This document shows positions 11,825 to 50,898 of a DNA stretch of 64,000 nt, in pieces. The stretch covers positions 186,001 through 250,000 of the forward strand of contig NZ_CACVAF010000006.1 in the NCBI RefSeq assembly GCF_902726565.1. The letters are read 5' to 3'. Under the pieces are notes generated by a model. It saw only the letters and a list, made by a program, of their open reading frames with translations. It did not search any database and had not been told where the DNA came from. The stretch comes from Yersinia vastinensis. Lineage in GTDB: Bacteria > Pseudomonadota > Gammaproteobacteria > Enterobacterales > Enterobacteriaceae. The position numbers and the translations under genes were made by a program. Each line of letters begins with the position of its first letter. Positions within the stretch are counted from its first letter, which is position 1.

Positions 11825-13045
11825 ATGTCGCGTGTAGCAAAAAATACATTCTGGCTAATGTTGGCACAAATTGGCGGTTTATTTATCCCCTTGATTGAGC
11901 TACCTGTGTTGGCTCGAGCTTTGGGGCAACAAGGTTATGGGCAAGTGCTTTATGCTTTGGGGCTAGCATTGACTGCTTCCGTTTTTGTCGAGTTTGGTTT
12001 TAATTTCAGCGCAGCACGTAGCGTCGTAAAAGTGAAAGAAGATCGTGCAAGACTAGCTCAACTCGTTACTAACGTATTGGCAGCAAAGCTGCTATTAAGT
12101 TCGGTAGTTATTCTTGCCATCGGAGTTTTGATATTTTTCAGTATGGGGGCGACTACGATTCCTCACTATTGGTTTATTTGGGTTTCACTGTTTCTTGTTG
12201 CATTTGGTTTTAGTCCACTATGGTACTACGTAGGAATTGAACGGCTAATCTTGCCTTCATTATTAGATCTTGCACTACGCAGCACGGGACTTTTATTTAC
12301 GATCACTTTGGTTTCATCACCAGAACATGCCCAACGTGTATTAATTATCCAGGCAACGGTTGGAATTCTTAACACCTTTATTCCAACATTTATTATGCTG
12401 CGCCAAACGGGCTTGGGGCGAATAAATCTGAATGGTACATGGCAAGTTATTCGTGATAGTTGGGAGCTATTTTTGTACAAAGGTGCTCAAAGTATTATGG
12501 GTTCCATTGCTTCAACATTATTAGGTTTTTTAGGTGGTGCTCGTGCTGTTGGTTCGTTTGTCCCTGCGGAAAAACTAATTCGAGCGGCTAGTGGCTTGGC
12601 TATTCCGGCTTTAAATGCAGCATTTCCACATCTGGTTAAATTGCAGCGTGACTCAGAACGTACTGCTAAAAAATTAGTCACTATCGCACTAGTGGTAATT
12701 TCAATCGCCACTATATTATTCTCAATTACCACTGTATTTGCATCAGCCTGGGTTGTGAATATTGTTTTCGGGCCAGGCTATCAAGATGCTATTAATTTAT
12801 TAAAAATACTGGTGTGGGTAGTGCCATTTCGTATTAATAGTATGATTTTGGCCGTTTTATGGTTCATTCCTACAGGAAAAGAACGTATTGCCAGCAGAGT
12901 GATGATAGCTAATATAAGCCTTATTTGCATGCTTGCTATACTATTAATTCCAACGCTAGGTGGCCTGGGTATGACACTCGCATTTTTGGTGGCCGAGATA
13001 ATAATGTTCTTGGTGCTAATATTCTTTTTTTGTAGGAATAGATAG
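11825..13045 (+). CDS. wzx: Polysaccharide-unit flippase (Wzx family)
   Basis: 406 residues with about 12 hydrophobic segments and the N-terminus typical of Wzx/RfbX transporters (NTFWLMLAQIGGLFIPLIEL, then VLARALGQQGYG). Such proteins flip undecaprenyl-linked sugar units across the inner membrane. It overlaps by one base with a glycosyltransferase gene. It lies away from the wbc genes, separated by gsk, rosAB and ushA, so it may serve the outer core, the O unit or another glycan. AT-rich with an atypical start region. The family is sure; the substrate is unknown. Confidence 0.82.
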   Translation: MSRVAKNTFWLMLAQIGGLFIPLIELPVLARALGQQGYGQVLYALGLALTASVFVEFGFNFSAARSVVKVKEDRARLAQLVTNVLAAKLLLSSVVILAIGVLIFFSMGATTIPHYWFIWVSLFLVAFGFSPLWYYVGIERLILPSLLDLALRSTGLLFTITLVSSPEHAQRVLIIQATVGILNTFIPTFIMLRQTGLGRINLNGTWQVIRDSWELFLYKGAQSIMGSIASTLLGFLGGARAVGSFVPAEKLIRAASGLAIPALNAAFPHLVKLQRDSERTAKKLVTIALVVISIATILFSITTVFASAWVVNIVFGPGYQDAINLLKILVWVVPFRINSMILAVLWFIPTGKERIASRVMIANISLICMLAILLIPTLGGLGMTLAFLVAEIIMFLVLIFFFCRNR

Positions 13046-13935
13046 TGAATGATTTAACTCTAAGTGTTGTGATTACAACTTATAATCGCCCCGAATTAGT
13101 GGTTAGGGCTGTTAATTCCGTAGTGTCACAGAGAAGTCAGAAATATCGTATTGAAATCATAGTTGTTGATGATGCCTCGACATCACTTTTACCCGAATTC
13201 AATGTACCTGAACTTATCACTTATCGCATGCCCATCAACGGCGGTCCTGGTTTAGCAAGGATGCAGGGGCTTAAATTATCCCATGCACCTTGGGTATTAA
13301 TACTAGATGATGACGATGTGATGACATCAGGATCTGTTGAAAAACTTATGCATATTCTTGATGACGAAAATCTTGATTCATATTTAGTAACTATGTTTGC
13401 CTGTTCTAACGGGAGTATGAGGGATAAATATCATCTAATTAGTTTTGATGATTATATGTCTGGGTATATTATCGGCGATTTTACGCCTGTCTTTAATAGA
13501 GAAAAATTCTTAGCAACAGGGTTAAGCTATCCTCAAACTAGGCTTGGTGGTGAGCATCTATTGTGGTGGCGTATTGCGTTAGATTATAAAGGAATCCCTA
13601 CCTTTAATATGAAATTAATCGATGTTTCAAATGATGCTCCATCGCGCTTAACTAGTGCTACTACGCAAGTTAAATATTCAGCAGAACATAAAATTCTCGC
13701 CGATCTAACATTGTCCCAATTTGGTGAGCGTATATCCAAAGATTATCCAGAGCAATTTCGTCGTATCAGTTTAGCGAGAATTACTTATAGTCTATTAAGT
13801 AATGATAAGGCGAGTGCTCGCCGTTATATACTCACGAGTACTATTAGCTTAAGTATGAAGATATCTTTGCTGGTTATCAGCCTTTGTCCTCAGAGTATAA
13901 TTCGCAAAGCTTTTGTTTTTTATAGGGGTAGATAA
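13045..13935 (+). CDS. Glycosyltransferase family 2
   Basis: 296 residues, starting with a GTG that overlaps the wzx stop by one base, with TAGGAA upstream. The GT-A signatures are clear: SVVITTYNRPE at the N-terminus, VVDDAS and the DxD motif in LDDDDVM. A short hydrophobic stretch (ISLLVISLCPQSIIRKAF) at the C-terminus may touch the membrane. With wzx it forms a two-gene unit, plausibly adding a sugar to a lipid-linked unit that the flippase exports. Donor and acceptor are unknown. Confidence 0.8.
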   Translation: MNDLTLSVVITTYNRPELVVRAVNSVVSQRSQKYRIEIIVVDDASTSLLPEFNVPELITYRMPINGGPGLARMQGLKLSHAPWVLILDDDDVMTSGSVEKLMHILDDENLDSYLVTMFACSNGSMRDKYHLISFDDYMSGYIIGDFTPVFNREKFLATGLSYPQTRLGGEHLLWWRIALDYKGIPTFNMKLIDVSNDAPSRLTSATTQVKYSAEHKILADLTLSQFGERISKDYPEQFRRISLARITYSLLSNDKASARRYILTSTISLSMKISLLVISLCPQSIIRKAFVFYRGR

Positions 13936-37896: not shown

Positions 37897-38154
37897 TTAG
37901 CGATTGTCCAACTGGGCACGAACATTGTTCAGCCCGGTGGTGTTGATGCGGTAAGGTTGACCATTGACGGATTTAATCAGTTTTTTGGTTTTGAGTTTTT
38001 TAAAAACGGCAAGTGTACAATTGGTGAGCAACAGTCCTTCGCGGCTGTAGCATTCAACGGATGTGACGCGGCCTGATGTGTCGCGAACGTACACAATACG
38101 TCCACCTTTGGCGAGAACGTGTAAGGTACGTTGTTCCTGACGGGATAAATTCAT
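37897..38154 (-). CDS. yjhX: Topoisomerase I inhibitor toxin TopAI (YjhX, UPF0386)
   Basis: 85 residues, full length and nearly the same as the E. coli protein I remember ([20 protein letters not shown] at the start, [19 protein letters not shown] at the end). E. coli YjhX (TopAI) was described as a toxin that binds topoisomerase I and blocks DNA relaxation, with YjhQ as antitoxin. Here the toxin is intact but yjhQ is cut short. A short leader ORF and a strong hairpin precede it. Confidence 0.9.
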
Positions 38155-38568: not shown

Positions 38569-38882
38569 CTAATTGGCTATTTTTGTTACTCGGGTAGTCA
38601 GTGCCATCGCTGCGCTGGCCACGGTAAATACTGCGATTATCCAACCCATGTGCCATCACTTAATGGCCCCCAAATCAATTTAGCAATGCAAAAGCTGATT
38701 AAAAATCCGGTGATGGTCAGTTCCACATTGCCTTGCAAATCTTCCGCCATGGTAGGCATAGCCGGTAAATAAATATCGGTAGATAAAGAGGTGAAAGCCA
38801 TTAATGCACTGAGAATAATAACAAAAGAAAGGCCGGTCGTTTTTCGGGAAATGGTCTGCATGTGCGCCTGAGTGTCAATCAT
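38569..38882 (-). pseudogene. Bcr/CflA-type MFS drug transporter with internal deletion
   Basis: Residues 1-77 from 38882 match the start of Bcr/CflA multidrug transporters (MAFTSLSTDIYLPAMPTMAE, then IAKLIWGPLSDG). The frame stops near 38640. In another frame the next ~26 codons (38649-38569) read MGWIIAVFTVASAAMALTTR, a typical final membrane segment, and stop. The middle ~300 residues are missing and the ends are fused out of frame. A non-functional relic. Confidence 0.8.
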
Positions 38883-39028: not shown

Positions 39029-39991
39029 TTAGCTAATATCAGAAACTGAAGCGCGTGCAATCAGACGGCCGGTGATTGTATGGCCTTCCGTGCTAAATAC
39101 GGGATGCCCGTCAATCAATGCGCGAATACGTTGCATACAGTTTTCTAAAAGCTGTTCCACCGGGTAAGCGATGCACGTCAGTGGTGGGTAGAGCAAGGAT
39201 GCCAGTGGTGAATCCTCAAGGCTAACCAAAGAGACCTCTTGCGGAACTGCGATATTAAATTCACGCAACAAACGCATAGCTTCAGCCGCGTAGCAATCGC
39301 GCTTGGCAATAATGACCGAGTACTTGGTGAAACTGTTTATGAGGGTGAGCAACGCCTGCTCAACATTGCGATTAGCCGTGACCAATAATTGTCGGTTAAA
39401 GGGGAGCGAGTAGTTTTGCAAGACACTGCGATAGCCTTCGAGCATCTGTTTGCTGGCTTCATCCTGTTCGCTATCGACCAAGAGAGCAATATTACGATGC
39501 CCTTTCCCCAAGACATAGCGGCACGCACTTTCAGTGGCAAACGCATAATTATAGCCCTGACTGACGTTGCCTTTTACTGAAAACTCATCAAAAGCAATGA
39601 CATTGTTGGCAATAGCTGTGCTATTTCTCCCCAAAGTCACGACAGCAACACACTGGTGCTGTAAATCTTCAACAGCGCGTTGCTGTTCAATTTCATCGTT
39701 TACATATTGAATCAATAATGACTTATTGAGGGATTTTATGGCTTGAGATAGCTGAGGTAACAGAGAGGCGCTTAACCCGGCTTCAGTTGCCGGCAACACC
39801 ATTCCAACGTAACTGGATGTTTGGCTTGCCAAATTTTGGGCGGCAAAGCTTGGACGGTAGTTTAACTCTTCTACCGCCCGTAATACGGCCTCACGGCTTT
39901 CATCACGAACGCCGCGTGTGCCAGTAAGAACACGTGACACGGTGGCTCGGGAAACGTTGGCTAACTTTGAAACATCATCAATTGTAGGCAT
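39029..39991 (-). CDS. LacI-family transcriptional regulator of the mannan/PTS cluster
   Basis: 320 residues: LacI HTH at the N-terminus (TIDDVSKLANVSRATVSRVL), hinge with RPSFAAQNLAS and a periplasmic-binding-like sugar domain. Last gene of the minus-strand arm. Two nearly identical CG-centred palindromes in the cluster (43084-43101 and 44616-44633) are of the LacI type and are its likely operators. The inducer is unknown; by context a mannose- or mannobiose-derived sugar phosphate. Confidence 0.88.
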   Translation of the reverse strand: MPTIDDVSKLANVSRATVSRVLTGTRGVRDESREAVLRAVEELNYRPSFAAQNLASQTSSYVGMVLPATEAGLSASLLPQLSQAIKSLNKSLLIQYVNDEIEQQRAVEDLQHQCVAVVTLGRNSTAIANNVIAFDEFSVKGNVSQGYNYAFATESACRYVLGKGHRNIALLVDSEQDEASKQMLEGYRSVLQNYSLPFNRQLLVTANRNVEQALLTLINSFTKYSVIIAKRDCYAAEAMRLLREFNIAVPQEVSLVSLEDSPLASLLYPPLTCIAYPVEQLLENCMQRIRALIDGHPVFSTEGHTITGRLIARASVSDIS

Positions 39992-40078
39992 GGTGTCTTC
40001 TGTATAACGATTTTCCCCTTATAGTAACACAAATGCGAAGTGGAATTAGCCCACTTGCGAAAGCGTATATTCTCAATA

Positions 40079-40984
40079 TTACGTCAATGTTGGTAACCAC
40101 GCAGCCCCCCGTACACCACTAGAATCGCCATATTTGGCTTTCAGAATGGCGGTGCGGCAATGTGTTGAGAAAATATATTTTTCAATAACTTTCGGTAGAT
40201 CCTGATAAATTTGCTCAACATTTGATAATCCACCGCCAATGACTATCGCGTGGGGATCAAGAATGTTGATTACACTTGCGAGGCTGCGAGCAAAAGCATC
40301 AATAAAATGCTGATAATGCGCAACCGCGTGTGCCTCCTGCTTTTGCACGAAATCCATAATGGCTTCTGTGGTGAATAATGTTCCATGAGTTTCATTAAAT
40401 CGTCTGGCAAAACCGGTCCCAGAGATAAAACTCTCAATGCAATTCTCTTGGCCACAATAGCAATATTGCGCCGGGCCATCGTTCATTTGGTTCATGGCGG
40501 GTAAGGGGTTATGTCCCCACTCACCGGCAATTGCGTTAGGGCCGCGGAGTAAATTCCCATTAACCACAACACCGCCACCGCAGCCAGTTCCAACAATGAC
40601 GCCAAACACGCAAGCATACCCCGCACCTGCACCATCGACCGCTTCCGAGAGTGCAAAGCAATCGGCATCATTTGCCAAAAATACCGGTTGTTTGAGTTGA
40701 TGGATAAGATCGCCTTTGAGATCCTCACCATTGAGTACCAGACAATTACAATTTTTGATAAGCCCACTTTGTGGATCAATGGCCCCCGGTAAGCCGATAC
40801 CGAGAGTAAATTCTTCTTCTGCCCTGTGTCTGACACTTTCAATCATCGAGAGCAGGTTACTGAGAAAACCTTGATAACTCTCTTTATGTGTTGGGCGGCG
40901 TTCACTGTAGTGCAGGTTGCCATGCTGATCGAGCAGCACGGCCTCCATTTTAGTGCCACCGATATCCAGGCCGAGATGTAACAT
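40079..40984 (-). CDS. ROK-family sugar kinase (likely manno/fructo/glucokinase)
   Basis: 301 residues. ATP motif LGLDIGGTKMEAVL, the zinc-binding Cys cluster CYCGQENCIE and the catalytic Asp in ANDADCFALSEA. The ROK family includes fructo-, manno-, gluco- and N-acetylglucosamine kinases. Its place between the regulator and the PTS genes suggests that it phosphorylates the free hexose released by the GH1 enzyme, as proposed for GmuE of B. subtilis. 58 bp after the IIA gene stop. Confidence 0.87.
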   Translation of the reverse strand: MLHLGLDIGGTKMEAVLLDQHGNLHYSERRPTHKESYQGFLSNLLSMIESVRHRAEEEFTLGIGLPGAIDPQSGLIKNCNCLVLNGEDLKGDLIHQLKQPVFLANDADCFALSEAVDGAGAGYACVFGVIVGTGCGGGVVVNGNLLRGPNAIAGEWGHNPLPAMNQMNDGPAQYCYCGQENCIESFISGTGFARRFNETHGTLFTTEAIMDFVQKQEAHAVAHYQHFIDAFARSLASVINILDPHAIVIGGGLSNVEQIYQDLPKVIEKYIFSTHCRTAILKAKYGDSSGVRGAAWLPTLT

Positions 40985-41042
40985 ATTGTCCTCACAAAAA
41001 AGTCAGAGAGGCGATAGCGCCTCTCTTAAAAGACACAGAAAC

Positions 41043-41348
41043 TTACTGGCGGGTGCGGTAAATCTCAATCAATTCGGTCACGAGTTCTTTGGCGAGAATC
41101 GAGGTCATTAAATGGTCTTGCGCATGCACCATGACCAGTGTCATTTTGGTTTTTCCCTCCCCCTCATCGGCTTCAATCAACTGGGTCTGAACCAAATGAG
41201 CTTCACGAGCATAATGTTGAGCCTGCTTCATTTTTTCATCAGCATCGGCAAAATCACCTTGTTTCGCACTACTGAGGGCTTCGTAACACAAGCTACGCGA
41301 TTGACCGGCATTAATAATGATGCCCATAACCTGTTCTTCTAATTCCAT
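41043..41348 (-). CDS. PTS lactose/cellobiose-type EIIA
   Basis: 101 residues, the helical EIIA(Lac/Cel) fold. The phospho-accepting His is His75 in MVHAQDHLMTS, and the family Asp for metal binding is close by in that stretch. It takes phosphate from HPr and gives it to the IIB encoded two genes upstream. Similar to GmuA and ChbA. Between the IIC and ROK genes. Confidence 0.93.
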   Translation of the reverse strand: MELEEQVMGIIINAGQSRSLCYEALSSAKQGDFADADEKMKQAQHYAREAHLVQTQLIEADEGEGKTKMTLVMVHAQDHLMTSILAKELVTELIEIYRTRQ

Positions 41349-41376
41349 GACAACCTCTGATATTTAAGACAAAAAA

Positions 41377-42702
41377 TTATGCAGTTTCTGATTGTGCGTT
41401 CGCACCTTGCAGTTCAGTATTTTCAGATTCCTGTTCAAGTAATTGTTTTTCATATGCTTTCAGAAACGGGAAGTACATTATGGCGGAGCTTACCATGCAC
41501 AGCAGGCACAAAATGACCGGGCTAAATGTCCAGTTAGCCGCCCACGAGGCACCTATTGGCGCTGGGGTTGTCCATGGCGTCATCGACACCACACGGGACA
41601 CTAAATCTAAATCGAGGGCAAAATACGCAAAAGTGGCATTTACCATCGGTACTAATACAAAGGGGATGAAAAACAATGGGTTCATAATGATCGGTGCGCC
41701 GAACAAAATAGGCTCATTAATATTGAAAAGGCCGGGAACCACACCCATACGACCAATGGTGCGCAAATGTACGGCTTTGCTACGCATCAGTAAAAATGCC
41801 AGTGGCAGAGTGGAACCTACGCCACCAATGAGCAAGTAGTGATCCCAGAAACCCTGAACATAGATGTGCGGAATGGCAGCACCAGCCGCCATCGCCGCCT
41901 GATTGACTGACAGGTTTGCCATCCAGAATGGGTTCATGATGCCTGTAACGATTAATGCCCCGTGGATCCCCGCAAACCAAAGCACTTGGCAAACTAAGAC
42001 AGAAAGTAAAATGGCTGGCAGTGTGTCAGAAGCCGCCACTAGCGGTTTGACCAGCGACATAATGGCTTCAGGAATAATCATGCCAAGTTGCGTTTCGATA
42101 AACAGATTCAGAGGATGTAAAGTGAGCACGACGGCCAGTACTGGGATCAAAATTTCGAAAGAACGCGCGACCCCTGTAGGAACTTCTGGTGGTAAGCGTA
42201 TCGTAATATTGTGACGTTTCAGGAAGGCGTATAGCTCTGTGGTGTAGATAGCCACCAGAATGGCCGTGAAAATGCCTTGCCCAGAGAAATAAGCTGTCGA
42301 TATTTGCCCTTCTTTTAAAGGGGCAGCTACGAGCAAGAATCCCATCAGCGATAGCATTCCAGACGTTAGCGGGTCAAGGCCATGATGCCGAGCCAAGCTT
42401 GCCGCAATCCCAACAGAAATAAATATCGTCATGATGCCCATGCTGAAATTAAATGGCAGCATAAGACTTTCTCGATTTTCTAACGAAAATTGGAGCCAAG
42501 CCCGGGCGAAGCCCCACTGGGTATCCGGCGAAAAAGGAGGGAAAATAAAGACCAACATGAATGAACCGACAATCATAAAGGGCAGGGCGGTAATAAAGCC
42601 ATCACGAATAGACGTGACATATTTTTGCTGTCCAACGACACCGGCCATTGGCGTGATTTTTTCTTCTATCACGCTGATTAATTTAGAGTACAGAGTGCTC
42701 AT
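41377..42702 (-). CDS. PTS lactose/cellobiose-type EIIC permease
   Basis: 441 residues, about 10 hydrophobic segments. Family signatures LWFAGIHGALIVTGIMNPFW and the substrate motif NINEPILFGAPIIMNP with the catalytic-site Glu. It moves a beta-diglycoside across the inner membrane while IIB phosphorylates it. Ten bases after the IIB stop. A second, divergent IIC gene lies at 43206-44480. Confidence 0.93.
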   Translation of the reverse strand: MSTLYSKLISVIEEKITPMAGVVGQQKYVTSIRDGFITALPFMIVGSFMLVFIFPPFSPDTQWGFARAWLQFSLENRESLMLPFNFSMGIMTIFISVGIAASLARHHGLDPLTSGMLSLMGFLLVAAPLKEGQISTAYFSGQGIFTAILVAIYTTELYAFLKRHNITIRLPPEVPTGVARSFEILIPVLAVVLTLHPLNLFIETQLGMIIPEAIMSLVKPLVAASDTLPAILLSVLVCQVLWFAGIHGALIVTGIMNPFWMANLSVNQAAMAAGAAIPHIYVQGFWDHYLLIGGVGSTLPLAFLLMRSKAVHLRTIGRMGVVPGLFNINEPILFGAPIIMNPLFFIPFVLVPMVNATFAYFALDLDLVSRVVSMTPWTTPAPIGASWAANWTFSPVILCLLCMVSSAIMYFPFLKAYEKQLLEQESENTELQGANAQSETA

Positions 42703-42712
42703 ACCTTATCCT

Positions 42713-43027
42713 TTATTTATTATTTTCAATTAATGAAAGGGCAAAATCTAAAACAGCCGCACCTTTTTGCATGCCGTAATCCATCATGTTGATGGGTTCG
42801 ACTTTAATGCCGTATGCGTTCGCTTTGTTTTGCAGGTCTTTTTGCATGTACTTCACTTGAGGACCAAGCAAAACTACCTGATAACCGCCAACGACTTGCT
42901 CAAATTCCGCGACGCCAAAAGCTTTGATATCCACCTCAAGACCGCGCTTATCTGCTTCTTCCACCATTTTTTTAACCAACAAGCTGGTGGACATTCCGGC
43001 AGAGCAGCAAAGCATGATTTTTTTCAT
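42713..43027 (-). CDS. PTS lactose/cellobiose-type EIIB
   Basis: 104 residues from the ATG at 43027 (MKKIMLCCSAGMSTSLLVKKM motif family). The active Cys is at position 8 in LCCSAGMST, and the P-loop follows. It receives phosphate from IIA and passes it to the sugar in IIC. First gene of the minus arm (IIB-IIC-IIA-kinase-regulator), right beside the shared operator. Confidence 0.93.
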   Translation of the reverse strand: MKKIMLCCSAGMSTSLLVKKMVEEADKRGLEVDIKAFGVAEFEQVVGGYQVVLLGPQVKYMQKDLQNKANAYGIKVEPINMMDYGMQKGAAVLDFALSLIENNK

Positions 43028-43083
43028 TGGTAACTCCTGATTGGGTAATAACAATGAGCGGACTATAATTATATGGATTCAAA

Positions 43084-43101
43084 ACGGAAAGCGCTTTCCG
43101 T
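43084..43101. promoter_or_regulatory. LacI-type operator in the divergent PTS promoter region
   Basis: Perfect 18-bp palindrome ACGGAAAGCGCTTTCCGT, 57 bp before the IIB start and 105 bp before the second IIC start. The CG-centred GAAAGCGCTTTC core is typical of LacI/CcpA family sites. It can control both arms at once. A nearly identical site lies before the porin gene. Confidence 0.85.
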
Positions 43102-43205
43102 TAATGGATCCGTTAAATGTGAGCACGATCACCAGATGGAGGCTTTCACTTTCCACGGATGTAAGCGATCATCGCGGAACTAATAGGTTCCTTATAGGTT
43201 TCCAG

Positions 43206-44480
43206 ATGAACATTCAGTTTATGAATGTTGCTGTCACGCTGATTGAACAGCGGTTGACTCCCTTTGCGAATATGCTCACTCGCAGCCAACACATCACCGC
43301 AATGCGCGACAGCTTTGCTCTTGCCATGCCATTTGTGATTATTGGCAGCCTCATGGTGCCGCTGATATTTCCCCCTTTTGCCATTGATATTTTTTCTTGG
43401 TATGGCGGGGTTTATCAGGTTGTTCGCCCGATGTTGTTACCGACTTTTGAATTAACCATTGGACTGGTGGCGGTGATTATCGCCTTCGGTGCGAGTGCCA
43501 GTTTGGCCAAGCAATACTGCCTACCTGAACGGTTATCGGGTTTGACTGGGTGTCTGGCTTTTTTGATGTTTGTTGGGTTTAAGGAAAATGCCGGCACGAA
43601 CGTTTTTCTGGGCGGAATGGGGATTTTTAGTGCGCTTATTTCAAGTTTTTATACGATTGAAATAATACGTTTTTTTTATCGTAAAGGGTGGTGTATCCGC
43701 TTACCTGAAGAAGTCCCTGTGATGACGCGTAACAGCTTCCAGTTATTGGTGCCGTTGCTCGTGATTATGTTGTCGATCACGGTGATTAACGCTTGGCTCA
43801 AACTGACAACAGGGATGATTTTACCTAACCTAATTAGCGAAGCATTTCGCCCCTTAATTATTGCATCCGACACCCTGACGGCTTTGCTTATCTCGCTACT
43901 TATCTGCCATCTACTGTGGTTTGTCGGTATTCACGGTGCGCTGATAGTTACTGGCATTATGAACCCGTTTTGGATGACGTATCTGTTTGAAAATCAACAA
44001 GCATTAGCACAGGGTATTACGCCACTCCCCCATATTTATTTGCAGGGATTCTGGGATTTTTATCTGCTGATTGGCGGGATTGGTTCTACACTTCCGCTGA
44101 TATTTATGGCGATGCGTAGTCGTTCAAGGCAGCTAAAAAGTGTCGGTAAAATAGGCCTTATTCCTTCCTTGTTTAATATCAATGAACCGATTCTTTTTGG
44201 ATTCCCCATCATTCTTAACCCTGTATTTTTGTTGCCTTTTATTGGTGTTCCGATGATTAATGCCTGCATTGCCTGGTATCTAACACACTTAGGTGTGCTC
44301 GACCGGGCTGTGGCGATGCTTCCTTGGTCTATGCCGTCACCCTTAGGGGCTGCATGGGCCGCTAATGGTAGCTGGAAAAATATGTTTATGTGTTTGTTCG
44401 CCATCTTTAACTCTTGGATGATCTATCGGCCATTCTTCAAAGTCTACGAACGGCAACTCACTGAATTAGAAAACAAATAG
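43206..44480 (+). CDS. Second PTS lactose/cellobiose-type EIIC permease
   Basis: 424 residues from the ATG at 43206; the longer frame from 43041 runs through the operator and is rejected. Same signatures as the first IIC (LWFVGIHGALIVTGIMNPFW, NINEPILFGFPIILNP) but clearly diverged elsewhere, e.g. a smaller N-terminal region. No extra IIA or IIB is present, so it presumably shares those of the minus arm and may handle another oligosaccharide length or linkage. First gene of the plus arm. Confidence 0.92.
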   Translation: MNIQFMNVAVTLIEQRLTPFANMLTRSQHITAMRDSFALAMPFVIIGSLMVPLIFPPFAIDIFSWYGGVYQVVRPMLLPTFELTIGLVAVIIAFGASASLAKQYCLPERLSGLTGCLAFLMFVGFKENAGTNVFLGGMGIFSALISSFYTIEIIRFFYRKGWCIRLPEEVPVMTRNSFQLLVPLLVIMLSITVINAWLKLTTGMILPNLISEAFRPLIIASDTLTALLISLLICHLLWFVGIHGALIVTGIMNPFWMTYLFENQQALAQGITPLPHIYLQGFWDFYLLIGGIGSTLPLIFMAMRSRSRQLKSVGKIGLIPSLFNINEPILFGFPIILNPVFLLPFIGVPMINACIAWYLTHLGVLDRAVAMLPWSMPSPLGAAWAANGSWKNMFMCLFAIFNSWMIYRPFFKVYERQLTELENK

Positions 44481-44615
44481 CTCATCAATGTCATGTTTTA
44501 CTCTTAGCCAGCGCCTACGGGTAGCTGGCTTTTTTATGCCTGCAAACTTTATAGAGTGATCTCTATCACGATTTAGCGAACATTCACCGCTAATTTGTGA
44601 CGCAATCCGGCAATT

Positions 44616-44633
44616 ATGGAAAGCGCTTTCCGT
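44616..44633. promoter_or_regulatory. LacI-type operator upstream of the porin gene
   Basis: ATGGAAAGCGCTTTCCGT, one base different from the operator at 43084-43101, 88 bp before the porin start. It implies a second regulated promoter for porin-mannanase-GH1-manA in the gap after the second IIC gene. Confidence 0.85.
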
Positions 44634-44720
44634 AATTGGATGTACATTTCCGCAATTGATCCGTAAATTTCCCTCCGCGTTATTCAGATGCCATCTCACT
44701 CAAAATACAAAAGGGAAATC

Positions 44721-46058
44721 ATGAAAAGTCTGAACCGATTATTACCTCTGTCTTTACTGGTTAGCTCTGCAATTAGTGGCCTTGCTTATGCGGATCAATA
44801 CGATTTTAAAATGCATGGCTATATCCGCTCCGGCATTCTTGCAAACACTGATGGTAACCGTGTCGATTCTGTTGGCCTGATGCCGGACGGAAAATTCCGC
44901 CTTGGCAACGAAGACGACACCAAGATTGAACTCATCCCACAAGTCACACTGAAGTCTGATTCTGGAGTAGTTGCAAAAGTTCAGGCCAATATTACTCATC
45001 AAAGCAAATGTACCTCTGACTGGAACTGTCTTGATGATGATGGCAAATCAGTGCAATTCCGCGAAGGATACGTCGAGCTAAGCCAACTGGATTTCGCGCC
45101 AGATATCACGTTCTGGGGGGGGAAACGTTATAGCAGTTCCAATACTTCCAGCCACCAATTTGACTGGGAATATATCCAATACAACGGTACGGGAGGCGGC
45201 TTCGATAATCTTGATCTGGGCTTTGCACGTTTTGATGCGGGAATCTATTCCTTTTCCACGACAGATGAAGCCAAAGCCTATCCAGTGGATAAGAGTGAAC
45301 AGGGCTACCCAGATGATTACTCCCTTAATCTGTGGTTCAAGAAAATTGGCGGCTCGGCTTTTGACCTGGAACTGGTCGGCCACCATATGAACAACAACGA
45401 AAATCATGTTGGGGCGGCAGAAAAGGGTTATGGCGTCACCGGTGTGTATCACTTTGATGGATTCTATGGCCTGCTTGATGGAAGCTCCAAATTTGTTGCT
45501 CAGTACGGCCGCGGGTTAGCAGCAGGCGATTCATTGGGCAAAAATGGTTGGGGATGGGCGAATCTGGAAGACACGCAATCTTGGCGAATCGTGCTAGATG
45601 GTCTGGTTTCTGTGGGTGATGGTTGGGAAGTTTCCACTTTTGCTTACTACCAAAAAGATAAGAATTACCGTTGGTGGACCAGCGACGACAAAGGGTGGGG
45701 ACGCACCAGTTGGGTCGCCGGTATTCGCCCTTACCAACAAATCACCAAAAACTTCGCGATGCAGTATGAGGTGGGCTACGAGTATCTCGACGATGAAAAC
45801 TACAAAGGTGTGGATGGCAAAGGCAAAGGCGGTTTAACCAAAGTCACAATCGCACCCACGCTGACTTTTGACTCGGGCTTCTGGAGCCGTCCACAAATCC
45901 GCGTATTTGCGACTTATGCTAAATGGGATAAAGGGGTTTCCGACGCACTCGACGGCAACTATGACTGGAGCACCAACACCATTAGTGCTGGCGGTTATAG
46001 CCGTACTGGTGGAACCGACACTCTGAACTTTGGTATTCAGGCCGAAGTGTGGTTCTAA
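44721..46058 (+). CDS. LamB-family carbohydrate porin
   Basis: 445 residues. Signal peptide (LLPLSLLVSSAISGLAYA), then a LamB-like beta barrel: FKMHGYIRSGI at the start, FREGYVEL, FWGGKRY, and a C-terminal strand ending in aromatic residues (FGIQAEVWF), as outer-membrane barrels need. It would admit oligosaccharides through the outer membrane. The start at 44721 has AAGGGAAATC upstream. 11 bp before the mannanase gene, so the two are surely co-transcribed. Confidence 0.9.
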   Translation: MKSLNRLLPLSLLVSSAISGLAYADQYDFKMHGYIRSGILANTDGNRVDSVGLMPDGKFRLGNEDDTKIELIPQVTLKSDSGVVAKVQANITHQSKCTSDWNCLDDDGKSVQFREGYVELSQLDFAPDITFWGGKRYSSSNTSSHQFDWEYIQYNGTGGGFDNLDLGFARFDAGIYSFSTTDEAKAYPVDKSEQGYPDDYSLNLWFKKIGGSAFDLELVGHHMNNNENHVGAAEKGYGVTGVYHFDGFYGLLDGSSKFVAQYGRGLAAGDSLGKNGWGWANLEDTQSWRIVLDGLVSVGDGWEVSTFAYYQKDKNYRWWTSDDKGWGRTSWVAGIRPYQQITKNFAMQYEVGYEYLDDENYKGVDGKGKGGLTKVTIAPTLTFDSGFWSRPQIRVFATYAKWDKGVSDALDGNYDWSTNTISAGGYSRTGGTDTLNFGIQAEVWF

Positions 46059-46069
46059 GGAGAAATACG

Positions 46070-48265
46070 ATGAAACTACCTATCAGAAAAGCTCTGTTAT
46101 TGTCGCTATTATCGGCGTTGGCAAGTGTTGGTGCCATGGCGGCGGAACAATCCCATTTTGAGCACTTTATTACTCGGCAGGGCGCTCAGTTAATGGAGGG
46201 CAGCAATACATTTCGTTTTGCTGGTATTCATGCCCCTGAATTGCATCGTATTGAAAATGATGCGCGTGGGGTTTGTAAGGCTGACCCGCGCGGTTGGGGT
46301 CAATATTTTACCTGGCCGACGGCTGAAGAGCAGGAAAACTGGATCAAAGCCATCGTGCAAACGGGCGCTAAGGTGCAGCGAGTATATGTACTCTCGGTGC
46401 AACAAGAGAATGATAAAGCGTGTGAGCGAGAGACGCATATTCTGGCACCGACGACGCCTGATGGCATGCCCAGCCTGAATGAGAAAGCCATGATAGTTTA
46501 CGACAACATGATTGCTGAGGCTGATAAACAAGGGTTGAGATTAATCCTGCCTTTTATCGATCAATGGTGGTGGTGGGGAGGGCGCGAGCAGTTGGCCGCT
46601 TTCTATCATGAAAAACCAGAAGATTTTTATAATACCAACAGTAAAACCTATAAAGCATACCAAGACATTATTCGTCAGGTCATCACCCGTACCAACACGA
46701 TTACGGGCCGCCCTTATTACGATGAAAAGGCCATTATGGCGTGGGAAACAGGGAATGAGCTTGAAGATACCAACGCCGCTTTCCTACATGAAACCGCCGC
46801 ATGGATAAAACGTTGGGCGCCACATCAGTTGGTGGTGGATGGTACATATAAGAAAATTAATGATTTTTCATTAGATGATCCAAACATTGATATCGTCAGC
46901 AACCACTATTACACCAATGCTGGAAATAACCATCCTGACCAAGTGAAGAAAGATTTACAGGCCATAGCAGGGAAGAAAGTTTATCTGGTGGGTGAGTTCG
47001 GTTTACTCGATAGCAAAAATCTCAACGACATCATGCAATCGATCGTCCATACCGAGGTGAATGGGGCGAAAGCCGCAGGCGGTTTCATCTGGGGCTTCCG
47101 TGGGCATCGCCATGACGGCGGTTTCTACTGGCACAAAGAGTACACCGGTCACTACAGCTACCACTTACCGGGCTTCCCGCAAGAGGGGAAAGATAAACAG
47201 GAAATGGATGTGGTTAATCTGGTGCGGACAGCGGCCGCACAAATGGATGGGCGGGATAAAATGTCACCGCTTCCTGCACCAGAGGCCCCAAAACTCCGTG
47301 AAACGGCATCGCCATTCGCCATTAATTGGATGGGGTCCGCCGTTGGTCGTCACTACGATGTTGAACGGGCAGAAACGAAAGAAGGTCCATGGATAATGGT
47401 CGGCCAAGATATTTCCGACGGTATTCAGGAGTGGGATCCAGCCAAAATGGACCTGTTCCGTGACGATTATTCCTCACTTGAGCTAGGTAAAACTTATTAC
47501 TACCGAGTTATTGCTAAAAATGAATCGGGTCAGTCGGCACCTTCAAATGTTATTAGCGTGACGCATAACCAGAAAAACCAGCCACCGGTTATTGAACTGA
47601 ATAACTCTGCATCAACGGTACAGAATAAAGGTATTAGCCTTGATGCTCGCTGGACAGATGACAATCTGCCTAACCGCAATGTCAGTGTGAAATGGCGGAG
47701 TTCGGGCAAAAGTAAGGCGCATTTCTGTGATGCGGAAAAACCATCAACGCGAGTTTGGTTCTCTAAGCCGGGTCAATATCAACTGACATTTACTGCGGAT
47801 GACGGCCTGTTGAAAAGTAGCAAAACCATGGACGTTACCGTGACTCAAGCGACGGGGCGAGTGCCAACTGATTTTTGCAAGTTTGACAGTAAACCCCTGT
47901 CTCTCAAGCAGGGGAAAGTCACGGTCGTGAAGAGTGCAGAAAATCAACTGGCAACCGGTGACGATGGTTTCCTCGGCCCGTTTGTTAATGAGGGAGATAA
48001 GGTGAGCTGGTTGGTTGATGCACCTTGGGATGGCGAGTATTTATTGCACCTGAATTTTAATGCCAAATGGGGCAGCAAGAAAAACTCAGTACAAATAAAC
48101 AGTGAGAAACCGCAGCAAATAGAATTCCCGGAAACGGATGATAAAGGTCAGAAAATGACAATACCTGTGCAACTTAAGCAGGGGGAAAATATCATCGATT
48201 TCGGGAAATTTGCTGGTGATTGGGGATATCTCTTTATCAAGTCTATCCAGGTGACTGCCGAGTAG
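46070..48265 (+). CDS. Exported GH5-like beta-mannanase with Fn3 and C-terminal modules
   Basis: 731 residues. Signal peptide to about residue 25 (SALASVGAMA). Catalytic GH5-type barrel to ~395: acid/base Glu230 in MAWETGNELED and nucleophile Glu309 in LVGEFG, with a Trp-rich loop QWWWWGGREQ. Then a fibronectin-III-like domain (~410-505, ending ESGQSAPSNVISVT), an Ig/PKD-like domain (~510-600) and a final ~110-residue module resembling a carbohydrate-binding domain. The family includes mannan endo-1,4-beta-mannosidases; PTS, kinase and ManA around it favour mannan over cellulose. Periplasmic, surface or secreted: undecided. Confidence 0.85.
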   Translation: MKLPIRKALLLSLLSALASVGAMAAEQSHFEHFITRQGAQLMEGSNTFRFAGIHAPELHRIENDARGVCKADPRGWGQYFTWPTAEEQENWIKAIVQTGAKVQRVYVLSVQQENDKACERETHILAPTTPDGMPSLNEKAMIVYDNMIAEADKQGLRLILPFIDQWWWWGGREQLAAFYHEKPEDFYNTNSKTYKAYQDIIRQVITRTNTITGRPYYDEKAIMAWETGNELEDTNAAFLHETAAWIKRWAPHQLVVDGTYKKINDFSLDDPNIDIVSNHYYTNAGNNHPDQVKKDLQAIAGKKVYLVGEFGLLDSKNLNDIMQSIVHTEVNGAKAAGGFIWGFRGHRHDGGFYWHKEYTGHYSYHLPGFPQEGKDKQEMDVVNLVRTAAAQMDGRDKMSPLPAPEAPKLRETASPFAINWMGSAVGRHYDVERAETKEGPWIMVGQDISDGIQEWDPAKMDLFRDDYSSLELGKTYYYRVIAKNESGQSAPSNVISVTHNQKNQPPVIELNNSASTVQNKGISLDARWTDDNLPNRNVSVKWRSSGKSKAHFCDAEKPSTRVWFSKPGQYQLTFTADDGLLKSSKTMDVTVTQATGRVPTDFCKFDSKPLSLKQGKVTVVKSAENQLATGDDGFLGPFVNEGDKVSWLVDAPWDGEYLLHLNFNAKWGSKKNSVQINSEKPQQIEFPETDDKGQKMTIPVQLKQGENIIDFGKFAGDWGYLFIKSIQVTAE

Positions 48266-48271
48266 TGTTTT

Positions 48272-48303
48272 AGCTGCGTCATGATTGGCGCAGCTTTTTT
48301 TTT
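48272..48303 (+). terminator. Internal terminator/attenuator between mannanase and GH1 genes
   Basis: 7-bp stem AGCTGCG / CGCAGCT with a 10-base loop and a run of nine T. It should stop much of the transcription before GH1-manA, making the exported part more abundant, unless a promoter hides in the short gap. Confidence 0.85.
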
Positions 48304-48322
48304 GAATCATTGAGGAGGTTAA

Positions 48323-49729
48323 ATGACAACGTATTCATTCCCAGCAAACTTTTTATGGGGAGCCGCGGCTTCTGGTCCACAAACCGAAGGTGCGGATAAC
48401 AAGCCATATCGCTCAATTTGGGATAGCTGGCATGCTCATCAGCCAGAACGTTTTTTTCAGGGAATAGGGCCGGAAAAAGTCTGCGAAACTCTGCACAAAT
48501 ATAAAGAAGATGTCGCGTTGATGAAAAAAATTGGTTTTAATTCGTTTCGCACGTCTATTCAGTGGTCGCGCCTTATTGAAGACGTTGAAACCGGTAAACC
48601 CAATGCAGAGGCCGTGCGTTTTTATAACGACTATTTTGACGAGATGATCAATCAGGGCATTGAGCCGATGATCAATCTCTATCATTTCGATATGCCAGAA
48701 GTTTTGCAAAATCGCTACGGTGGGTTTGAATCCAATCATGTCACCGACCTTTTTGCCCTCTTTGCCAAAACGGCATTCACTCTTTTTGGGCATAAGATTA
48801 AATACTGGATAACATTTAATGAACCTATCGTTCCAGTAGAGGGTGGGTATTTGTATGATTTCCATTACCCTTGCAAAAAAGACGGTAAGCTTGCGGCTCA
48901 GGTAGGTTTTAATATCATGTTGGCCCATGCAAAAGCCGTAAAATGCTACCGAGAATTAAATTTGTCGGGCGAAATTGGTGTGGTTCTCAATTTAACGCCA
49001 TCCTACACACGTAGTGATTCGCCAGAAGATAAAAAAGCAGCTTGGTATGCTGACCTCCTGTTTAACCGTAGCTTCCTTGACCCTCTGGTGAAGCATCAGT
49101 TTCCACAAGAACTGTGTGATGTACTGGCAAAGCATCATTGTCTACCTGACGTCAGTCATACGGACGTGACGTTAATTACTGAGTCACGCATCGATTTCTT
49201 GGGCGTTAATTATTATGTACCGCGTCGTGTAAAAGCACGCGAGACAGAATATGCATTAGACTATTTTACGCCTGAGTTTTATTTCGAGAACTATATCGAT
49301 CCAGATGGCCGCTTTAACCCCTATCGCGATAATAATGAAATATTTCCACAGGCTATTTACGATATTGCCACGAATATCCGCGATAACTACGGCAACATAA
49401 AATGGTATCTCGCTGAAATTGGTATTGCGATGGATCTTGAGTCCGAAGGGCCAGTTCAACAAGACGGTATAATTGACGACAGTTTTCGCATTGAACTGAT
49501 GAAAGAACATTTAGTTCAGCTTCATCGTGCTATTACGGCTGGTGCTAATTGCTTTGGTGTGCACCAATGGACGTTTATTGATAACTGGTCGTGGATTAAC
49601 TCCTTTAAGCGCCGTTACGGTTTTTACCGTTTGGATCTTGCAACAGGTCAACGGCAAATTAAACGTAATGGTTTATGGTTTAAAACGTTAGCGCAAAGCA
49701 ATCAATTTTCTTGTGAGGATGACTCATGA
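48323..49729 (+). CDS. GH1 phospho-beta-glycosidase (6-phospho-beta-mannosidase/glucosidase)
   Basis: 468 residues of GH1 barrel: start FPANFLWGAAASGPQTEGA, acid/base Glu167 in ITFNEPIVP, and nucleophile region around Glu365, read as YLAEIGIAM instead of the usual TENG. It should split the phosphorylated disaccharide made by the PTS into hexose and hexose-6-phosphate in the cytoplasm. The C-terminal WTFIDNWSWINSFKRRYG loop keeps the family SxxKRYG-like stretch used for phosphate binding. Good GGAGG ribosome site. Overlaps manA by four bases. Confidence 0.9.
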   Translation: MTTYSFPANFLWGAAASGPQTEGADNKPYRSIWDSWHAHQPERFFQGIGPEKVCETLHKYKEDVALMKKIGFNSFRTSIQWSRLIEDVETGKPNAEAVRFYNDYFDEMINQGIEPMINLYHFDMPEVLQNRYGGFESNHVTDLFALFAKTAFTLFGHKIKYWITFNEPIVPVEGGYLYDFHYPCKKDGKLAAQVGFNIMLAHAKAVKCYRELNLSGEIGVVLNLTPSYTRSDSPEDKKAAWYADLLFNRSFLDPLVKHQFPQELCDVLAKHHCLPDVSHTDVTLITESRIDFLGVNYYVPRRVKARETEYALDYFTPEFYFENYIDPDGRFNPYRDNNEIFPQAIYDIATNIRDNYGNIKWYLAEIGIAMDLESEGPVQQDGIIDDSFRIELMKEHLVQLHRAITAGANCFGVHQWTFIDNWSWINSFKRRYGFYRLDLATGQRQIKRNGLWFKTLAQSNQFSCEDDS

Positions 49730-50898
49730 GCCATGCCAATTTTTATCCGCTGACCAATGTTGTGAAAAACTACCCATGGGGTAGCCATACTGCACTGAAT
49801 ACATTTTTTCATGTTTTAAATCCAGATAATCAGCCGCAGGCAGAGTTATGGATGGGTGTGCATCCCGCCGGTTCGTCAAGTGTTATTGAAAAGGGAACGC
49901 CTTTACTGCTTTCGGATTTCATTGCGCAGAACAAGCCTGCCATGTTGGGAGCTACTGTTTCTCAGCGTTTCGATAACTTACCGTTTCTTTTGAAAATTCT
50001 TAGTGCAGAGACGGCATTGTCGATTCAGGTTCATCCTACTAAAACTCAAGCAGAAGCGGGTTTTTTACGTCAGAAGCAAAGCGGGGCAGCTGATTATAAC
50101 GATGAAAACCATAAGCCGGAGTTGGTCTACGCTATTACCGACTTTATGGCGATGAATGGTTTTCGCGAGATTGCTGACATCATAAATAACTTCAAATTGT
50201 TAGCGACTCCAACACTGGACAGCGCAGTGAGTTCTCTACAGCAATGCCCAAACTCTGAAGGATTAAAAAGGTTCTTTATCGCCCTGATGCAGATGTCTCT
50301 GACGGTTAAAGAGCAGGTATTACATCTGTTGGTCAATGCATCCCAGAGATTATATGGTGAAGAACTCTCTGCGTTTATTCAGCGCTTTCATAAAAATTAC
50401 CCAAATGATATTGGCATTCTCGCGCCACTCATTCTTAATTGCATCACACTGAAACCTGGCGAAGCTATGTTTTTGCATCCCGGCACACTACATGCTTATG
50501 TCCAAGGTACTGCCATTGAAGTGATGGCCAGTTCAGATAATGTACTTCGCGCGGGATTAACGGGTAAAAACATTAATTTGACTGAACTGGTTCATTGCAC
50601 ATCGTTTGAACCTACTCGGTTTGAATCGTTATTAATGGCACCCCATTGGGAGAGTGAGCAGGCGAGTTATCCGATTCCAGTGGATGATTTTCGTTTCAGT
50701 ATTTTTAACGAAGTCAATAATCACCCCGTGAGTATTAGCAGCGGTGAGATTTTATTAGTCATAAGTGGTAATGCCTTGCTAAGACATTGTGATGGAGAAA
50801 TATTGACAGTTCAAACCGGCCAATCAGTATTTATCCCGGCATCAGCAGGTAGTTACTCTCTCACAACTTCCGGCCGCTTGTGCCGGGTTTTCTGTTAA
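49726..50898 (+). CDS. manA: Mannose-6-phosphate isomerase, class I
   Basis: 390 residues of type I phosphomannose isomerase: KNYPWGSHTALN, zinc ligands in SIQVHPTK (Gln/His), NHKPEL (Glu) and the catalytic FLHPGTLHAYVQGTAIEVMASSD region. It turns mannose-6-phosphate into fructose-6-phosphate. The ATG overlaps the GH1 stop, so the two are coupled; a pathway-dedicated copy, likely in addition to a housekeeping manA elsewhere. It is the strongest pointer to mannose as a product of this cluster. Confidence 0.93.
   Translation: MSHANFYPLTNVVKNYPWGSHTALNTFFHVLNPDNQPQAELWMGVHPAGSSSVIEKGTPLLLSDFIAQNKPAMLGATVSQRFDNLPFLLKILSAETALSIQVHPTKTQAEAGFLRQKQSGAADYNDENHKPELVYAITDFMAMNGFREIADIINNFKLLATPTLDSAVSSLQQCPNSEGLKRFFIALMQMSLTVKEQVLHLLVNASQRLYGEELSAFIQRFHKNYPNDIGILAPLILNCITLKPGEAMFLHPGTLHAYVQGTAIEVMASSDNVLRAGLTGKNINLTELVHCTSFEPTRFESLLMAPHWESEQASYPIPVDDFRFSIFNEVNNHPVSISSGEILLVISGNALLRHCDGEILTVQTGQSVFIPASAGSYSLTTSGRLCRVFC

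Follow-up and report, generated by a model that had tools for sequence, protein, structure and literature searches.

Here we describe a ten-gene locus of Yersinia vastinensis that is very probably a self-contained, horizontally moving unit for the use of beta-mannan or glucomannan. The locus lies at positions 39029-50898 of a 64,000-nucleotide stretch of contig NZ_CACVAF010000006.1 (hereafter the window; the draft genome spans 4.52 Mb on 44 contigs) and combines sugar phosphotransferase system (PTS) components with an outer-membrane porin, an exported endo-beta-mannanase, further sugar enzymes and a LacI-family regulator. We observed directly this gene set, a pair of palindromes with an adjoining CRP-like site that recurs among relatives, and the recurrence of the whole unit in other genera. 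A first-pass annotation had read the locus as a Gram-negative counterpart of the Bacillus subtilis gmu operon; our analysis confirms what it observed and partly supports how it interpreted it.

All ten open reading frames (ORFs) are intact and form two divergent arms, in agreement with the first-pass annotation, and our Pfam and NCBIfam scans assigned the families LacI, ROK, PTS_IIA, PTS_EIIC twice, PTS_IIB, LamB, CBM_35, Glyco_hydro_1 and type I phosphomannose isomerase. Four starts were revised to likely positions inside the longest ORFs, chosen from sequence: 43027 for IIB (favoured over 43054), 43206 for the second IIC, 44721 for the porin and 46070 for the exported enzyme. The minus-strand arm runs IIB (42713-43027; PF02302), the first IIC copy (41377-42702; PF02378, with TIGR00410 above cut-off), a IIA of the lactose/cellobiose/diacetylchitobiose type (41043-41348; PF02255, with PRK10454 at 151.5 bits for a cut-off of 148), a ROK sugar kinase (40079-40984; PF00480, 2.4e-75) and a LacI/GalR-family regulator (39029-39991; PF00356 and PF13377). 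The plus-strand arm runs a second IIC copy without IIA or IIB of its own (43206-44480; PF02378), a LamB-family sugar porin (44721-46058; PF02264, 5.9e-90) that matches sucrose porin and maltoporin structures, the 731-residue exported mannanase (46070-48265), a glycoside hydrolase of family 1 (GH1; 48323-49729; PF00232) and a type I mannose-6-phosphate isomerase, ManA (49726-50898; TIGR00218 above cut-off), whose ATG overlaps the GH1 stop codon. For the kinase, the nearest NCBIfam model is fructokinase PRK09557, at 361.7 bits under a cut-off of 443. This set of genes is found again across numerous genera, and its assembly is therefore more than chance.

Mannan use, as proposed by the first-pass annotation, is well supported by analogy with an assayed ortholog of the exported enzyme, Man1E of Enterobacter aerogenes B19. 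Man1E is a 731-residue endo-beta-mannanase with a signal peptide and a C-terminal carbohydrate-binding module (CBM), and the purified protein degraded locust bean gum, konjac powder and guar to manno-oligosaccharides, with no attack on xylan, starch or carboxymethylcellulose (CMC) (PMC7362650). The comparison used the length, residue numbers and motif published for Man1E: length, signal peptide and C-terminal CBM correspond, all eight published catalytic-centre residues are in register with the window enzyme, and 13 further residues (seven glycines, H279, R104, R207, D145, D274 and Y216) stand at the same numbers (PMC7362650). The two enzymes are evidently orthologous at the level of these features. 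Man1E was filed under GH1 from a CDD match, whereas the window enzyme is GH5-like by fold, which corrects the family of an assayed mannanase; the words "operon" and "PTS" do not occur in the main text, and the genes around Man1E are not treated there (PMC7362650).

The exported enzyme comprises a signal-like N-terminus, a GH5-like barrel, a middle part with weak Fn3- and PKD-like matches, and a CBM35. Its earlier designation as a GH5-type enzyme stood in phmmer, profile search and fold comparison, all of which grouped the catalytic domain with GH5 mannanases, but not in Pfam, where the catalytic part matched no family even at E<10. In the fold comparison, GH5 mannanases came closest to the predicted structure and ranked far ahead of cellulases, and the top structural rows are beta-mannanases and mannosidases from plants, fungi and bacteria. 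The catalytic Glu pair, with an Asn before the acid/base (N229, E230 and E309), is invariant in all 21 aligned rows, the window included. In fold, Glu pair and mannan specificity the domain resembles GH5 mannanases of the subfamily 7 type, among which 8gf3 is titled BlMan5_7 and the other best structures presumably belong to the same subfamily; it differs from them in sequence, at 18-23% identity to the best 19 structures, and in the lack of any matching Pfam model. A cellulase or endoglycoceramidase identity, named in the first-pass annotation as the contrary outcome, was rejected on the fold ranking together with the inactivity of Man1E on CMC.

The GH1 is likely a 6-phospho-beta-mannosidase/glucosidase. 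It keeps NEP and the nucleophile Glu, but at the nucleophile EIG stands for ENG. Of the 21 GH1s from such loci, 20 share this change and that of Aeromonas does not; of six other GH1s in this genome, the five that are readable all have ENG. Free-sugar GH1s have a Glu where 6-phospho-beta-glycosidases carry a Ser-Lys-Tyr phosphate loop. In the corresponding loop, SWINSFKRRYG, Ser and Tyr are kept and Lys is shifted by one, as in the nearest solved relative, 5foo. From its family and gene partnership, the enzyme would be expected to act on phosphorylated substrates, perhaps with a preference for mannosides. The Aeromonas GH1 matches a paralog outside the mannan locus at 73% identity and is not of the EIG type, so the GH1 of the locus has been exchanged at least once.

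That paralog belongs to a LacI-IIB-IIC-GH1-IIA-porin operon of the same Yersinia genome (L057, 3335-9636; G000:C2, about 471.3-477.6 kb), which shares with the mannan locus the PTS type, GH1, porin, LacI and a similar pair of palindromes upstream. Its IIC and GH1 are 71% and 51% identical to the first IIC and the GH1 of the locus. In the stretch examined it differs in lacking a mannanase, a kinase, ManA and a second IIC, in a GH1 with ENG, and in its palindrome core, GGAAAACGGTTTCC, which occurs at two sites. Perhaps the inner half of the mannan locus descends from an operon of this type. The two IICs of the locus itself have about 45% identity and a single IIA and a single IIB between them, and both are present in 19 of 20 related loci; this pairing is the least explained feature of the locus.

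Regulation by LacI is suggested by the regulator gene and by recurring palindromes at the promoters of the locus. The perfect palindrome GGAAAGCGCTTTCC occurs exactly at two places in the whole genome, against 0.013 expected, and both are in the locus: putative operator 1 in the divergent promoter region (43086-43099) and putative operator 2 upstream of the porin gene (44618-44631). Only this exact pair is informative, because at up to two mismatches the genome total (16 places) shows no excess over a control (19). Two sites within two mismatches of GGAAAGCGCTTTCC were found in all 20 relatives, both exact in 13, and in 18 they occupy the same two positions; in Enterobacter sp. JUb54 (L017) both lie upstream of the porin gene, and in Aeromonas simiae (L025) one precedes ManA and the other stands between the second IIC and IIB. 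Photobacterium and Aeromonas share GGAAACCGGTTTCC in place of GGAAAGCGCTTTCC. Beside operator 1, the sequence TGTGAGCACGATCAC (43118-43132) follows the pattern TGTGA-N6-TCAC, which resembles the CRP consensus; all 17 intergenic regions that were aligned, the window's among them, contain this pattern, whereas L017 and L025 could not be aligned. LacI would bind the palindromes and CRP the CRP-like site. One published survey of LacI regulons includes a group, ManR, that serves mannose and mannosides, but its main text mentions neither Yersinia nor mannan nor mannobiose (PMC4052901).

To follow the unit in other bacteria, a search with the exported enzyme yielded 30 loci in named genomes, and the set compared here comprises 18 loci from enterobacteria (including Yersinia), Photobacterium and Aeromonas (L013-L030), one E. 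coli locus and one plasmid locus. Related loci occur in Kluyvera, Klebsiella, Enterobacter, Kosakonia, Phytobacter, Photobacterium and Aeromonas, and the unit is therefore not peculiar to Yersinia. Porin and mannanase are present in 20 of 20, each PTS gene, GH1 and LacI in 19, ROK in 16 and ManA in 12; the presence of a second ManA elsewhere in the window's genome fits the absence of the locus copy from eight relatives. A further genome of the same family (G356) carries all ten genes. The one exception to the presence of PTS genes, GH1 and LacI is Enterobacter sp. JUb54, whose locus is split into distant parts, porin-mannanase-ManA (L017) and LacI-ROK-IIA-IIC1-IIB plus IIC2-GH1 (L066), with two operator-like sites at each. 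In the comparison across Yersinia genomes that the first-pass annotation had proposed, the enzyme gene was found in 5 of 25 species genomes, with porin and GH1 adjoining in all five, and four have all ten genes (the window, L015, L016 and L027). Elsewhere it is sparse: among 394 genomes of the order, 13 have a relative at E<=1e-30 and four, including the window's own, one of at least 72% identity; it is present in 7 of 5,426 complete E. coli genomes; and six records of a plasmid collection contain it, two distant ones from Priestia and four close ones, of which CP125156, at 5.4 Mb, is chromosome-sized.

Mannanase relatives also occur outside such a setting. None of the remaining 12 of the 30 loci (L031-L042; six from Gilvimarinus; L041 and L042 short) had a homolog of the PTS genes, GH1 or porin at E 1e-5. 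Such homologs were also absent from five of a further six stretches (L049-L054), which come from five genomes of the order. In the sixth, L052 (G221), a distant mannanase-like match lies close to genes resembling LacI, GH1 and IIC; mannanase and PTS may have been brought together independently there. Several loci of the compared set showed peculiarities of their own. In the rearranged Aeromonas simiae locus, the mannanase is followed by an extra ORF similar to the CBM end of that enzyme; in Photobacterium sanctipauli (L026) a second, distant ROK-family gene (12224-13198) lies between mannanase and GH1; and in Kluyvera genomosp. 3 (L029) the homology to both IICs, porin, LacI and GH1 is in several pieces, which suggests decay or sequencing errors.

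Tree grouping, patchy occurrence, different sites within Yersinia and carriage on a plasmid and an island together point to horizontal movement of the locus between genera. In a tree built from six proteins (18 rows), all four rows from Yersinia fall on a single branch (97/97); taken alone, this would be compatible with one gain in the genus. Two species of Kluyvera stand beside this branch, while K. ascorbata clusters with the plasmid and E. coli F247. In E. coli F247, the one E. coli viewed, the whole locus has ssrA-linked integrase/recombinase genes on one side and a relaxase gene on the other, and the one plasmid viewed, the K. pneumoniae IncFIB plasmid p64EVAM-6, carries it whole. In six other Yersinia genomes, homology to the window begins at about 52.4 kb (G003 and G010) or at 52.5-52.8 kb (the other four), with no match to the window left of that point at E 1e-10 in the stretches compared, so this is a variable region; a clean empty site was not obtained from these six genomes. 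In G010, the enzyme gene is about 430 kb away from the point where this homology begins. Six exact peptide patterns used as a weak test for phage-borne copies were absent from all viral_contigs stretches. Near the locus, we also noted a YjhX-family gene (37897-38154, minus strand), a family that Pfam describes as the putative toxin of a toxin-antitoxin pair, and at its edge an 81-residue ORF resembling the start of a major facilitator superfamily transporter (38637-38882, minus strand).

In the mechanism that we propose, the exported CBM35 mannanase would cut mannan to short oligosaccharides, which the LamB-type porin would carry across the outer membrane. IIA and IIB, with either IIC, would import and phosphorylate disaccharides such as mannobiose or mixed glucose/mannose forms, GH1 would split the phosphorylated disaccharide, the ROK kinase would phosphorylate the freed mannose (or glucose), and ManA would lead to fructose-6-phosphate. 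The LacI repressor would act at the two operators, with CRP adding catabolite control. Of these steps, mannan cleavage is shown through the assayed ortholog. For uptake, import, splitting, phosphorylation, the ManA step, repression and CRP control the basis is family membership and gene partnership, from which we infer the cargo of porin and PTS, the kinase substrate, the inducer and the place where the mannanase acts.

Several observations weigh against this reading. Among the locus proteins, the mannanase alone has an assayed ortholog, and its CBM profile also matches CBMs of non-mannan enzymes; Glu75 of the CBM, noted for Man1E as replacing a Phe of the mannan-binding platform, is Glu here too (PMC7362650). 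The last residue list of that paper, in printed order His222, Phe225, Ile266 and Lys303, corresponds to I, W, F and K in the window enzyme; the list is probably misordered, since IM(F/L)A(S)WE(Q), a motif given in that same paper, agrees with I222 and W225 here (PMC7362650). ROK is missing from four and ManA from eight of the 20 loci, with ROK elsewhere in the split genome; nor can the 20 relatives count as independent, several being near-copies of one another. The best solved GH1 relatives, moreover, are named 6-phospho-beta-D-glycosidase (5foo), beta-glucosidase or beta-galactosidase. These names, and the identity of the first IIC and the GH1 to the paralogous operon, could also be accommodated if PTS, GH1 and porin served cellobiose-like sugars, as that operon may, and the mannanase were a side acquisition. 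Such a cello-oligosaccharide or beta-glucoside system is improbable, given ManA and ROK in 12 and 16 of the 20 related loci, the inactivity of Man1E on CMC and the distinct, conserved EIG signature of the locus GH1.

The route of the mannanase is a further point. No GspD (type II secretin) match over the family cut-off was found in the genome with the one model used, and the best candidate (G000:C5:74778-75938) scored below the cut-off and has one stop in frame; the enzyme may therefore be periplasmic, or its export may follow some other route. With the porin gene directly 5' of the enzyme gene, this gives some weight to a scavenger form, compatible with most of the proposed mechanism, in which a periplasmic mannanase trims porin-imported oligosaccharides freed by other organisms to disaccharides. 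We regard it as a serious possibility, somewhat short of an even chance: a CBM35 of the mannanase kind would be of little use on soluble oligomers, and secretion routes beyond GspD were not searched. Far less credible, and indeed very improbable, is a host-glycan system, in which the substrate would be mannose-bearing glycoconjugates of an animal and not plant fibre. Six of seven E. coli records with the enzyme gene come from chicken or human sources, and the plasmid carrier is from human feces; the best structural rows, however, are the plant, fungal and bacterial beta-mannanases and mannosidases noted above, the ortholog Man1E attacks plant galactomannans and glucomannan, and the carriers include the environmental genera Photobacterium and Mangrovibacter.

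Under the preferred reading of a mobile beta-mannan/glucomannan locus, enteric bacteria could gain the use of a common plant or food fibre as one transferable block, as the Klebsiella plasmid and the ssrA-linked E. coli island illustrate. We suggest only tentatively, as something that may well prove otherwise, that these loci form a distinct mobile class of Gram-negative, PTS-centred mannan loci, marked by a mannanase clade outside Pfam, by one IIA/IIB pair driving two IICs, each with its own cargo (mannobiose and glucosyl-mannose, for example), and by a GH1 remodelled from ENG to EIG for 6-phospho-mannosides. The cargo split between the IICs and EIG as a mark of 6-phospho-mannosidases are both testable.

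The known system closest in content is gmuBACDREFG, the B. subtilis glucomannan operon reportedly described by Sadaie et al. in 2008. It is cited as such in two papers, which list gmuR in the GntR family and give GmuG a GH26 domain (PMC10766802, PMC11669640). A cellobiose-type PTS IIA/IIB/IIC, a GH1, a kinase, a mannose-6-phosphate isomerase, an exported mannanase and a dedicated repressor are common to both, and to this extent the claim that every gmu function has its match stood; it did not extend to the regulator, LacI-family here and GntR-type in gmu, to the mannanase, GH5-like with CBM35 here and GH26 in gmu, or to the second IIC. The LamB porin, rightly singled out as an addition to the gmu set, the divergent layout and the CRP-like site are further differences. 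A literature search covering titles, abstract starts and some passages found no published description of the whole locus, in keeping with the first-pass annotation, which knew of none in Yersinia. By analogy, then, the locus works like gmu and is not gmu gene for gene, since two defining features, the GntR regulator and the GH26 mannanase, are absent here; it is best called a Gram-negative, LacI-controlled and porin-equipped variant of PTS-based mannan use.

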